Below, piece by piece: positions 21,487 through 54,705 of a stretch of DNA of 64,000 bases. The stretch is from Variovorax atrisoli 110B. Its GTDB lineage: Bacteria > Pseudomonadota > Gammaproteobacteria > Burkholderiales > Burkholderiaceae_C. The position numbers and the translations under genes are program-made. The stretch lies in the NCBI RefSeq assembly GCF_000382045.1, contig NZ_KB907451.1, positions 186,001-250,000 of the forward strand, in the 5' to 3' direction. Under the pieces are notes generated by a model. The model was not told the origin of the DNA and did no database searches. It saw only the letters and a list, made by a program, of their open reading frames with translations. Position 1 is the stretch's first letter. Each line of letters opens with the position of its first letter.

Positions 21487-21915
21487 ATGCAGCGGCTCAA
21501 GACCCGCGCGCAATTCCAGGCCGTCCTCGCAGGTGCCACCGTGGCGCGCACTGCTCATTTCGCATTGCATCGCTGTGCGCTCGATCTCGCATCGAGCGCA
21601 CAGCCTTTGTTCGCGTCCGACGACGTCTGGCTGGGTGCCATGGTGCCCAAGCGCTGGGCGCGCCGCGCGGTCACGCGCAACGCCATCAAGCGCCAGATCT
21701 ATTCCGTGAGCGCCGAGTCGGGCGCCGGCCTGCCGCGTGCGGCGCACGTGGTGCGCCTGCGCGCGGGCTTCGACCGCAAGGAGTTCGTGAGCGCCTCCTC
21801 GGACAAGCTCAAGGCCGCCGTGCGCGCCGAGCTCCGGCAATTGCTCGCACGGGCCGTGCGCACTCCCGCGGCGCAGGCTCCGGCCCCTTCTGCGGCACCC
21901 TCCTCCTCGCCATGA
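21487..21915 (+). CDS. rnpA: Ribonuclease P protein component
   Basis: The 142-residue protein subunit that helps the RNase P RNA trim tRNA 5' leaders. The central RNR-like motif is visible as TRNAIKRQIYSV, after a beta-strand region (VWLGAMVPKRWARRAV). The tail after about residue 118 is Ala/Pro-rich and probably disordered. The ATG at 21487 (MQRLKTRAQF) is the normal start; the open frame upstream overlaps rpmH and is ignored. The stop overlaps the yidD start by ATGA. Confidence 0.95.
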   Translation: MQRLKTRAQFQAVLAGATVARTAHFALHRCALDLASSAQPLFASDDVWLGAMVPKRWARRAVTRNAIKRQIYSVSAESGAGLPRAAHVVRLRAGFDRKEFVSASSDKLKAAVRAELRQLLARAVRTPAAQAPAPSAAPSSSP

Positions 21916-32361: not shown

Positions 32362-32877
32362 TCAGTAGCCGCTGTTGCCGCCGCCGTAACCACCGCCACC
32401 GCCCGAGCGGCCGCCGCCACGGGGGCCTGCGCCGTAGGGGCTGCGGAAACCGCCATCGCCACCACCGCCGCCGCCACCACTGCGGCCACCGCCGCCGTAG
32501 CCGCCACCGCCGCCGGAGCGACCGCCACCACCGTAGCCGCCACCACCACCGCCGCCGTAGCCACCACCGCCGCCATAACCACCACCACCACCACCGCCGC
32601 CGTAGCCGCCGCTGCGCGGAGGACGGGCTTCCATCGGACGTGCTTCGTTGACGACGACGCTGCGGCCGCCCAGGGGCTGGCCGTTCATGCCGTTGATTGC
32701 GGCCTGTGCTTCCGCGTCACTGCCCATCTCGACGAAGCCGAAGCCCTTCGAGCGACCGGTGTCGCGTTCCATCATGACCTTGGCGCTGGTCACGGCGCCG
32801 AACTGCCCGAAGGCTTGTTCGAGATCTCCGTCGCGCACCGAGTAAGGCAGGTTGCCGACGTACAGTTTGTTGCCCAT
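32362..32877 (-). CDS. Glycine-rich RRM RNA-binding protein
   Basis: A 171-residue protein. One RNA-recognition motif (residues 1-78) has RNP2 LYVGNL and RNP1 KGFGFVEM. A tail of about 90 residues follows, almost wholly Gly/Tyr/Arg/Ser in GGGYGGGG-type repeats. Such proteins are cold-induced RNA chaperones in some bacteria, and the low-complexity tail could promote condensation. The ATG at 32877 is favoured over an adjacent TTG at 32880, because GGAG lies 7 bases before the ATG and only 4 before the TTG. Confidence 0.93.
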   Translation of the reverse strand: MGNKLYVGNLPYSVRDGDLEQAFGQFGAVTSAKVMMERDTGRSKGFGFVEMGSDAEAQAAINGMNGQPLGGRSVVVNEARPMEARPPRSGGYGGGGGGGGYGGGGGYGGGGGGGYGGGGRSGGGGGYGGGGRSGGGGGGGDGGFRSPYGAGPRGGGRSGGGGGYGGGNSGY

Positions 32878-33156
32878 CAAGGGACTCCTATAAACACATC
32901 AAGAAAAGCGATGGAGTCCCGAAAGCATCACTCAAACGAGAGCGTCGAGTCGCGCGAAACTGACCGATCACCGAACTGCCTCCCGACCAAATTGAAGAGG
33001 GAGGCTCGTGCATTATGGGTGAAATATCCGAATTGCAAGCGGGAATTTGCTTCTTGAGGTAGCACCTGTCAAAACAATTCGGAAGTTTGCGCATACTCTC
33101 ATGATGGAGCGAAGTCCTTCGCCCTACATCCGTGCCTGCATGTAGAATTCCGATCG
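32878..33156. other. Non-coding leader/promoter region upstream of the RRM gene
   Basis: About 280 bases without a convincing gene between the RRM start and the Mn riboswitch. It is less GC-rich than the rest. A long 5' leader would suit a cold-regulated RRM gene, but no conserved cold-shock element is recognised. A loose promoter-like pair, with a suboptimal 15-base spacer, is present on the minus strand near 33012-33038. Confidence 0.35.
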
Positions 33157-33270
33157 TCATTGGGGAGTAGCCGCCTTCCGATCTGCGAGAAGGGCCCGCG
33201 TCAACAGACTTGTCCTGTCCCACCAGGATATGGCGCGTGCAGTGAAAAACACCTGGCGAGACCTTTGACC
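33157..33270 (+). ncRNA. Mn2+-sensing yybP-ykoY riboswitch aptamer
   Basis: Hallmarks appear in order: GGGGAGTAGCC at 33162-33172, the CAACA-GACTTG-type loop at about 33202-33212, and GCGAGACCTTTGAC at 33256-33269. GTCA (33157-33160) can pair with TGAC (33266-33269) to close P1. This matches the yybP-ykoY family, which senses Mn2+ and controls Mn exporters including GDT1/UPF0016 genes, exactly the gene that follows. Confidence 0.85.
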
Positions 33271-33326
33271 GTGCAACTTCGGGAATATGGCCGAAGGTGT
33301 TGCACGGTCAATTGCGTCCTTCGGCC
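33267..33326 (+). promoter_or_regulatory. Expression platform of the Mn riboswitch: two exclusive hairpins
   Basis: Arm GACCGTGCAAC (33267-33277) pairs perfectly with GTTGCACGGTC (33299-33309) and is extended by TTCGG/CCGAA. Its base overlaps the aptamer's P1 3' strand. Alternatively GGCCGAAGG (33289-33297) pairs perfectly with CCTTCGGCC (33318-33326). The short CCTT (33318-33321) can otherwise pair with AAGG (33328-33331) of the ribosome-binding site. No T-run follows, so translational control seems likelier than termination. Confidence 0.6.
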
Positions 33327-33345
33327 CAAGGAACCCCACGTCATC

Positions 33346-33909
33346 ATGGAAGCTTTTCTCGTAGCAACGGGCGTCGTCGCGCTCGCGGAAATGGGCGACA
33401 AGACCCAGCTCCTGGCCCTTCTCCTGGCCGCGCGTTTCAGGAAACCCTGGCCGATCGTCCTCGGCATCTTCGCCGCCACCGTCATCAACCACGCGCTCGC
33501 GGGCGCGGTCGGCAACTACCTCACTCGCTGGCTCGGACCCGAGGTGCTGCGCTGGATACTGGGCGGCTCGTTCATCGCGATGGCCGTCTGGATGCTGATT
33601 CCCGACAAGCTCGACGACGATGACGCCCCTGGCGCATCGAAGTTCGGCGTCTTCGGCACCACGGTCGTCGCGTTCTTCCTCGCCGAGATGGGCGACAAGA
33701 CCCAGATCGCCACCGTCATGCTCGCCGCCCGCTTCACGCACGACTACTTCTGGGTGGTCGTGGGCACCACGCTGGGCATGATGCTGGCGAACGCGCCCGT
33801 GGTGTGGCTCGGCGAGAAGATCGTGCGGCGTGTGCCGATCAAGCTCGTGCACGGCATCTCGGCAGCGATCTTCCTGGTGCTCGGCGTTCTCATGATCGTC
33901 GGCATATAA
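33346..33909 (+). CDS. TMEM165/GDT1 (UPF0016) family manganese/calcium transporter
   Basis: A 187-residue membrane protein with about six helices in two repeats. Each repeat carries the family's signature E-x-G-D-K-T (EMGDKTQLL near residue 15 and EMGDKTQIA near residue 115). Bacterial relatives such as Vibrio MneA export Mn2+. The ATG at 33346 has AAGGA 13 bases upstream; the TTG-started extension through the riboswitch is rejected. The Mn2+ riboswitch directly upstream supports a Mn-efflux role. Confidence 0.92.
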
Positions 33910-53863: not shown

Positions 53864-54634
53864 ATGGCGCAGCACATCGCCAGGAAGCGATTCGGCCAGC
53901 ACTTCCTGTCCGACGGCGGGATCATCGATGCGATTGTGCGCGAGATCGCGCCGCAGCCCGGCGATGCCATGGTCGAGATCGGCCCGGGGCTCGCCGCGCT
54001 GACGCAGCCGCTGGTGGAGCGGCTGGGCCGGCTCACCGTGATCGAGCTCGACCGCGACCTTGCGAAGCGCCTGCGCGAGCATCCGCAGCTCGACGTGGTC
54101 GAATCCGACGTGCTCAAGGTCGACTTCGCCGAACTGGCCGCGAGGTTTCCGGCCGGCAAGCCGCTGCGCGTGGTGGGCAACCTGCCCTACAACATCTCCA
54201 CGCCGATCCTGTTCCATCTGCTGGGCTGCGCCCATCTGGTCGCCGACCAGCACTTCATGCTGCAGAAGGAAGTGATCGACCGCATGGTGGCCAGGCCCGC
54301 CACGTCCGACTACAGCCGCCTGAGCGTGATGCTGCAATGGCGCTACGAGATGGAGAACGTGCTGTTCGTGCCGCCCGAGAGCTTCGACCCGCCGCCGCGC
54401 GTGGACAGCGCCGTGGTGCGGATGGTGCCGCTGGCGACGCCGCCGACCGTCGACGAGCAACGCCTGGGCGAAATCGTGCAGGTCGCCTTCAGCCAGCGCC
54501 GCAAGCTGCTGCGCCACACGCTGGGCAAGTGGCTGGAGGAACACGGTTTTTCCGGCGACTTCGACACCCAGCGGCGGGCCGAGGAGGTGCCGGTGGCCGA
54601 CTACGTGGCGCTGGCCCAGGCCGTACCCCGATGA
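53864..54634 (+). CDS. rsmA: 16S rRNA dimethyladenosine transferase
   Basis: A 256-residue KsgA-family enzyme that dimethylates A1518 and A1519. The N-terminus [10 protein letters not shown], the SAM motif [11 protein letters not shown] and the catalytic NLPYNIS are canonical. pdxA, which often lies between surA and rsmA, is absent here. The gene ends directly at a terminator. Confidence 0.96.
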
Positions 54635-54662
54635 AAAAAGCGCGCCTGGGGCGCGCTTTTTT
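54634..54662. terminator. Terminator after rsmA, potentially bidirectional
   Basis: A6-GCGCGC (54634-54645) pairs with GCGCGC-T6 (54651-54662). The symmetrical A and T runs let it serve the rightward lptD-surA-rsmA operon and leftward transcripts. Confidence 0.88.
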
Positions 54663-54705
54663 CATTTGCTCGTCGTCGCCGGCAAGCTTTGCCGACTTTT
54701 CCCGA

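Follow-up and report, generated by a model that had tools for sequence, protein, structure and literature searches.

In Variovorax atrisoli 110B, the RNA that joins a manganese riboswitch aptamer of the yybP-ykoY class to the Shine-Dalgarno sequence of a GDT1-family gene can form two perfect helices, A and B, which cross one another and whose counterparts covary among leaders of the same kind. This covarying platform of crossing helices is what is new here and, judged from sequence comparison, suggests a shared way of switching the gene; the aptamer, the target gene and the competition between P1 and an anti-P1 hairpin are already known. A description of a crossing helix pair at the ribosome site was not found in the literature searched, comprising the excerpts available of PMC6754395, PMC11087558, PMC11647493, PMC9603457, PMC9495176, PMC2258182, PMC3874183, PMC7838592 and PMC7011215, and the founding papers on the Mn2+ riboswitch or the first alx paper may hold one. 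All papers cited by PMC number are cited from such excerpts. The window referred to throughout is the whole stretch of DNA that was analysed, 64,000 nucleotides in length.

Results

A covariance-model scan with RF00080, the Rfam family of the Mn2+ riboswitch (yybP-ykoY), matches positions 33150-33328 with 62.7 bits (E 4.2e-14; gathering cutoff 45) and spans the full model (1-177), which bears out the riboswitch class assigned in a preliminary description of this DNA. RF00080 is the sole Rfam family above its gathering score in the 64-kb window, and the leader is its only match in the whole genome (7,515,890 bases), which thus holds the GDT1 riboswitch and no second copy. The loop sequences GGGGAGUAGC and GCGUCAACA, which we take to be the conserved loops of the metal site, are both present in the aptamer when it is aligned to RF00080, and GUCA/UGAC occupies the P1.1 positions in 99 of the 148 leaders analysed below. 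The GDT1 assignment of the downstream gene, made earlier as well, stands on its PF01169 score (Table 1); the translation contains two EMGDKTQ motifs, fitting the two E-x-G-D-[KR]-[ST] motifs by which the GDT1/UPF0016 family is defined (PMC7380456), and its closest named relative is a protein of Variovorax guangxiensis (99% identical). According to a review, a UPF0016 member lies under a yybP-ykoY riboswitch in 328 of the 333 screened bacterial strains having one (PMC7380456), so the pairing of riboswitch and GDT1 gene is in itself ordinary. The divergent neighbouring gene (32362-32880, minus strand) encodes an RRM RNA-binding protein (PF00076) whose tail is rich in glycine.

Table 1. Features of the riboswitch leader and its target gene (positions in the window)
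Feature	Position	Strand	Remarks
Mn2+ riboswitch aptamer (yybP-ykoY, RF00080)	33150..33269	+	P1 5' strand to P1.1 3' strand; Rfam match
P1.1 switch helix, 5' strand GUCA	33156..33159	+	pairs with UGAC 33266-33269; from sequence
Helix A, 5' arm UUGACCGUGCAAC	33265..33277	+	perfect 13 bp with 33299-33311; first 5 nt overlap P1.1 3' strand
Apical strand a' UUCGG	33278..33282	+	pairs with 33291-33295 atop helix A in minimum-energy folds
Helix B, 5' arm Ba GGCCGAAGG	33289..33297	+	in helix A loop, 1 nt from A 3' arm; perfect 9 bp
Helix A, 3' arm GUUGCACGGUCAA	33299..33311	+	perfect 13-bp helix; changes on both sides in congeners
Helix B, 3' arm Bb CCUUCGGCC	33318..33326	+	ends one base before Shine-Dalgarno; pairs with Ba
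Shine-Dalgarno AAGGAA	33328..33333	+	12 nt before AUG; one base after helix B
GDT1 (UPF0016) gene, predicted Mn2+ exporter, 187 aa	33346..33909	+	PF01169 156.6 bits, cutoff 27

Helix A is the anti-P1 helix. The preliminary description had given it as a perfect helix of 11 bp that reuses the P1 strand: the pairing is exact, the 11 bp are the inner part of a helix whose true length is 13 bp, and the reuse is real, UUGAC (33265-33269) being common to helix A and the 3' strand of P1.1. The same holds widely: in 147 of 148 leaders, helix A takes up three or more nucleotides from the 3' strand of P1.1/L1. Among perfect inverted repeats in the window with loops of 3-60 nt, helix A ranks third in length; the two longest lie at 54631-54665 and 21572-21604, with arms of 16 and 14 bp and loops of 3 and 5, respectively. 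Minimum-energy folds add to helix A, after a 3-nt bulge, an apical extension of 5 bp formed by strand a', and the fold of the whole leader is only moderately more stable than those of shuffled sequences (z -1.79 and -1.83).

Helix B, described earlier as a perfect 9-bp helix adjoining the Shine-Dalgarno sequence, is likewise exact. It exceeds dinucleotide shuffles of the window leader at p = 0.02, and taken alone it is not rare, the window holding 53 perfect repeats with arms of 9 bp or more and loops of 3-60 nt. The two helices share no nucleotide. Ba lies inside the loop of A and Bb lies beyond A, so that A and B cross in the manner of an H-type pseudoknot, a form in which two stems cross and the loop of the first contains the 5' arm of the second, and to judge by the sequences they may coexist in such a form. 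The preliminary description had called the helices mutually exclusive, which the pairing does not imply, given that no base is held in common; helix B is incompatible with the apical extension of A and with no other part of it, and the pairing equivalent to a'/Ba gives no covariation signal among the leaders of the order (p = 0.72). Pairing of a' with the Shine-Dalgarno region shows a weak trend in the same leaders (p 0.087).

For the comparative analysis, RF00080 was sought in relatives and in the family, order, class and phylum, and the better-scoring loci were taken from its matches, most weak ones being left out. Of the resulting 205 loci, 40 lacked the GDT1 motif by rule (at least two of those failing, L004 and L131, nonetheless look like GDT1) and 4 lacked the aptamer motif, leaving 161, which yielded 151 distinct segments running from the last GAC of the aptamer to the start codon; three segments longer than 110 nt (L174, L178 and L188) were dropped, so that 148 leaders were analysed. 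Each was searched for the strongest stem joining the loop region of helix A to the stretch preceding the start codon. This B stem scores above dinucleotide shuffles in 122 of 148 leaders at p<=0.05 and in 71 at p<=0.01, and its sequence differs from leader to leader (GGCCGG, GGGGGCUGCG, GGGAUCGGACGG, GGGGUUGCG and others), the complement changing with it. When arms were exchanged between species among 60 representatives of less than 70% identity drawn from the 148, the species' own arms paired far better than exchanged ones for helix A (z -16.1) and for helix B (z -15.0), and none of 10000 permutations was as good for either.

Within the genus, 5 of the 13 pairs of helix A are changed on both sides across 34 distinct leaders. 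These comprise 23 cells with a two-sided change, a number matched by none of 500 shuffles; the count of pairs so changed is reached by 13 of the 500. Pair types do not exceed the shuffles in number (101/500). Helix B is nearly invariant in the same 34 leaders and shows no covariation there. Wider searches added 28 loci that passed the GDT1 rule, 25 of them outside the order, and the B stem stands above shuffles (p<=0.05) in 23 of the 28 and in 21 of the 25. A set of 80 named loci, which are not independent since some come from genomes already counted above, fell to 45 after removal of 35 without aptamer and start codon by rule, and 35 of these 45 named GDT1 loci pass the B-stem test. For MntP, identified by similarity to the E. 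coli protein annotated as such, the stem is above shuffles (p<=0.05) in 11 of 22 leaders, 20 of which are from the order, with 10 of those passing.

Several observations concern the other genes found behind RF00080. An MntP-like gene follows the riboswitch in many relatives, several of which also carry the GDT1 riboswitch, so that the MntP one is a second copy (RF00080-MntP loci L051, L054-L057, L059-L061, L063, L064, L066, L142 and L150), and a B stem of the same kind is often seen in these leaders, for example GGUCGGGC/GCCCGACC in L055. Six further leaders (L145, L156, L163-L165 and L168) precede a membrane protein that by eye resembles a cation/Ca2+ exchanger, and by eye they have a similar GC-rich loop strand with its complement. 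Locus L002 (genome G071) has a 106-bit aptamer followed by a frame starting MEAFLISTDIVSLADIGNKTRR that looks like an altered GDT1 start, the longest nearby frame being exchanger-like. In a genome of the same family (G181), two equal-scoring RF00080 matches, L072 and L221, lie 20 kb apart (C2:152205 and C2:172457) with a third elsewhere, and the pair suggests a recent duplication.

With Ba kept free, the loop L2 between Ba and the 3' arm of A measures 0-1 nt in 135 of 148 leaders and is shorter than L1, the gap on the other side of Ba, in 146, an arrangement which, by analogy, has the look of coaxially stacked H-type pseudoknots. In the window, L1, L2 and L3 measure 11, 1 and 6 nt over 13 bp, which is at the limit of the ideal-helix estimate. 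By the ideal A-form estimate, the linker L3 can span a full-length helix A in 58 of 148 leaders and is too short in 90; with nucleotides 1-6, the aptamer's own strand, left outside A, it reaches in 143, and with nucleotides 1-10 outside in 136.

Nested folding was used to compare the two states, with energies that ignore pseudoknots, Mg2+, kinetics and proteins and with the 'A' state taken as any fold in which Bb is unpaired; on this basis, the Bb-free fold beats helix B in 103 of 148 leaders when the P1 strand is free (45 do not prefer it even then), helix B wins in 136 when nucleotides 1-10 are taken, and both preferences occur together in 92. The median of E(A)-E(B) moves from -2.8 kcal/mol with the P1 strand free to +6.6 kcal/mol once it is taken, and the window leader behaves alike (A -30.5 versus B -29.1 kcal/mol with the strand free; A -20.8 versus B -25.8 kcal/mol with it taken). 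The weakening of A by loss of the strand is built into the calculation; that the balance lies near enough to flip is not. The relay of helices put forward in the preliminary description is in this respect compatible with the nested energies of those 92 leaders.

Among the 124 leaders in which a Shine-Dalgarno sequence was recognised, it lies outside helix B in 102, partly inside in 17 and fully inside in 5, so that B mostly leaves it free. Where a GGA is present in the stretch around the ribosome site (114 leaders), B ends 0-3 nt before it in 84 and overlaps it in 21. The single-sequence fold of the window pairs AAGG with CUUU (33353-33356) in the coding region, and masking of the Shine-Dalgarno sequence by the first codons was tried as a candidate and is not favoured across the order, all 5000 permutations pairing as low as the leaders' own first codons. 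Pairing of Bb with its own downstream ribosome-site region is not favoured either and is in fact depleted among order leaders (p 0.999). In the 60 representatives, the ribosome-binding stretch shows less pairing to the Bb and first codons of its own leader than to those taken from other species, as if selected to be open. No conserved structure blocking the ribosome site in the A state was found among the pairings tested, those with Bb and with the first codons, which leaves the OFF state with A alone unexplained at the level of translation. Median energies for opening the ribosome site are 7.8 kcal/mol with A only, 7.0 with P1 and B, and 4.4 for the RNA downstream of Bb only, the last being lower partly because less RNA is folded; the A-only value exceeds that of P1 with B in 91 of 148 leaders and is not decisive for ON or OFF.

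The lack of a T-run in the leader, pointed out earlier, is confirmed, since no terminator-like site (GC-rich stem with T-run) was found between 33150 and 33345, and the stretch following helix A in the window reads UUGCGU. Across the 148 leaders, the 12 nt before Bb are U-rich (0.36 versus 0.23 for the whole segment).

Discussion

The reading that we favour, with rather less than even confidence, is that a Mn2+-responsive yybP-ykoY switch turns on the GDT1 exporter and that helix B belongs to the ON state. What was computed here is the aptamer match, the overlap of P1 and A, the pairings of A and B with their covariation, the conserved position of B beside the ribosome site and the nested energy balance; Mn2+ binding, the ON direction, the place of B in the ON state and an OFF route that would run through ribosome access, Rho or both are inferred. 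The ON direction comes from known members of the yybP-ykoY class, which Mn2+ switches on, and not from this sequence. Without Mn2+, the 13-bp hairpin A would take the 3' strand of P1.1, its apex would also hold Ba, and the gene would be OFF; with Mn2+, the aptamer would keep P1.1, helix A would lose its base, more linker would be at hand between A and Bb, and Ba and Bb would pair just upstream of an unpaired Shine-Dalgarno sequence, with helix B as a simple hairpin or as a pseudoknot stacked on the shortened A, and the gene would be ON. Mn2+ stabilises P1.1 (PMC6754395), which competes for its strand with A but leaves B untouched, so Mn2+ is expected to shift the balance towards B; on the premise that Mn2+ turns the gene on, as it does at the E. 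coli mntP switch (PMC11647493), B should then be compatible with expression. The mostly unpaired Shine-Dalgarno sequence and the alx and B. pertussis parallels described below also speak for this reading. Weighing against it are the lack of a conserved block of translation with A alone, the missing covariation of a'/Ba, and of B within the genus, the greater distance of the alx stem from its start codon, and the 45 leaders in which the Bb-free fold is not preferred even with the P1 strand free.

Known members of the class offer partial parallels. The yybP-ykoY riboswitches of L. lactis, B. subtilis and X. oryzae have the same aptamer and the same competition between P1.1 and a downstream hairpin (PMC6754395, PMC11647493). 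Their competing hairpin is described as a terminator, whereas that of Variovorax has no T-run, and, unlike in the descriptions given there, its loop pairs with a strand adjoining the ribosome site. A further parallel is E. coli alx (PRE; hairpins C, D, S and C/D), in which the loop of an anti-P1 hairpin, C, pairs downstream (C/D) as here; active and inactive forms were probed, and the C/D pairing has been placed in the translationally active structure (PMC3874183). The strongest B-like stem that we find in alx, CGGAAGGCG/CGUCUUCCG (p 0.028, hand-set search windows), fits the published C/D pairing, the two being matched by residue numbers in this analysis. It ends 34 nt before the start codon and has its partner in hairpin D, whereas here the stem lies next to the Shine-Dalgarno sequence, and alx is described as alternative hairpins and not as a pseudoknot, a word absent from that paper (PMC3874183).

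At E. coli mntP, where the ribosome site is reported to be inaccessible without Mn (PMC11647493), the best B-like stem, GCUGGGG/CCCCGGU, lies just before the Shine-Dalgarno sequence. It exceeds shuffles only slightly (p 0.09 when the hand-set windows are wide, 0.03 when they are narrow), and the likeness is therefore a lead; by eye, the loop equivalent to that of helix A holds a further hairpin in mntP, unlike here. B. pertussis belongs to the same order as Variovorax. Its BP3410 has a yybP-ykoY riboswitch and is induced by Mn, a GG change in the aptamer abolishes the induction, and the authors infer an early end of the transcript, at ~200 nt, without Mn; the excerpts describe no platform structure (PMC8546581). 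Given this inferred early end in a relative, the control of translation rather than transcription put forward in the preliminary description may but need not apply. In SAM-II, the aptamer itself is a pseudoknot with a stem at the ribosome site or close to it, and the ligand turns genes off. The preQ1 riboswitch resembles the present leader in placing a pseudoknot stem there; it differs in that its aptamer itself is the pseudoknot and its ligand turns genes off (PMC9495176).

That nothing conserved was seen to close the ribosome site when A is formed leaves room for two alternatives in particular. In the first, which we regard as possible and on the unlikely side, A and B together form an H-type pseudoknot; this would be the OFF state and would hinder the ribosome at the Shine-Dalgarno sequence without Mn2+; Mn2+ would stabilise P1.1, A would open and the block would weaken. 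The position of Ba in the loop of A, the short L2 (at most 1 nt in most leaders, and nearly always shorter than L1) and the ending of B at or within a few nucleotides of GGA are all consistent with such a block, as is a ribosome site that otherwise avoids structure, with no other block needed or seen; the test of the first codons, by removing another possible block, raised this alternative and slightly lowered our confidence that B belongs to the ON state. Against it, B becomes more favourable, not less, when the P1 strand is taken, as the shift in median energy difference shows, the ideal-helix estimate makes L3 too short for a full A in the majority of leaders, and the corresponding alx pairing has been placed in the active form (PMC3874183).

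The second alternative, which appears distinctly unlikely, is that A acts chiefly as a transcription attenuator, through a terminator-like or Rho-dependent stop without Mn2+, and that B is secondary, for example a shield against Rho or nuclease. An intrinsic terminator competes in the L. lactis and B. subtilis relatives (PMC6754395, PMC11647493), Mn2+ suppresses Rho termination at E. coli mntP in vitro (PMC11647493), and the short B. pertussis RNA (PMC8546581) and the U-richness before Bb point the same way. The window leader, however, has no terminator-like site, UUGCGU being what follows helix A, the mneA and terC riboswitches of Vibrio parahaemolyticus show no pronounced drop in RNA-seq coverage (PMC13274385), and attenuation leaves the upkeep of B at the ribosome site unexplained.

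It is highly improbable that the Shine-Dalgarno sequence is masked, when Bb is free, by a local hairpin that B opens: in the window, UCCUU/AAGGA (33317-33321/33328-33332) does pair over exactly 5 bp at -3.7 kcal/mol, yet the hairpin is not maintained even within the genus, where the Shine-Dalgarno sequence varies to UUGGA, UCGGA and UAGGA, and leaders of the order show a deficit of such pairing between Bb and the Shine-Dalgarno sequence. Chance complementarity in GC-rich DNA, for which the number of perfect repeats in the window might speak, is a negligible prospect for A and B and is ruled out as the origin of the pair by its conservation in swap tests, shuffles and compensatory changes.

A broader reading, which we put forward as doubtful, is that many proteobacterial yybP-ykoY riboswitches share a platform gated by reach, undescribed in the papers searched, that serves GDT1, MntP and perhaps other exporters. 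With the anti-P1 hairpin at full length, the linker behind it would not extend far enough to let the hairpin loop and the strand at the ribosome site pair; Mn2+ would return the P1 strand to the aptamer, so that the hairpin would shorten, the linker would lengthen, and a pseudoknot would form beside the Shine-Dalgarno sequence.

For the Gram-negative members of the class, the route from Mn2+ binding to the ribosome is thinly described in the literature excerpted here. The crossing helices, kept across Burkholderiales and in most of the sampled GDT1 leaders outside the order, provide a concrete structure for tests by compensatory change, and the helix pair could extend the Rfam family RF00080 at its 3' end.
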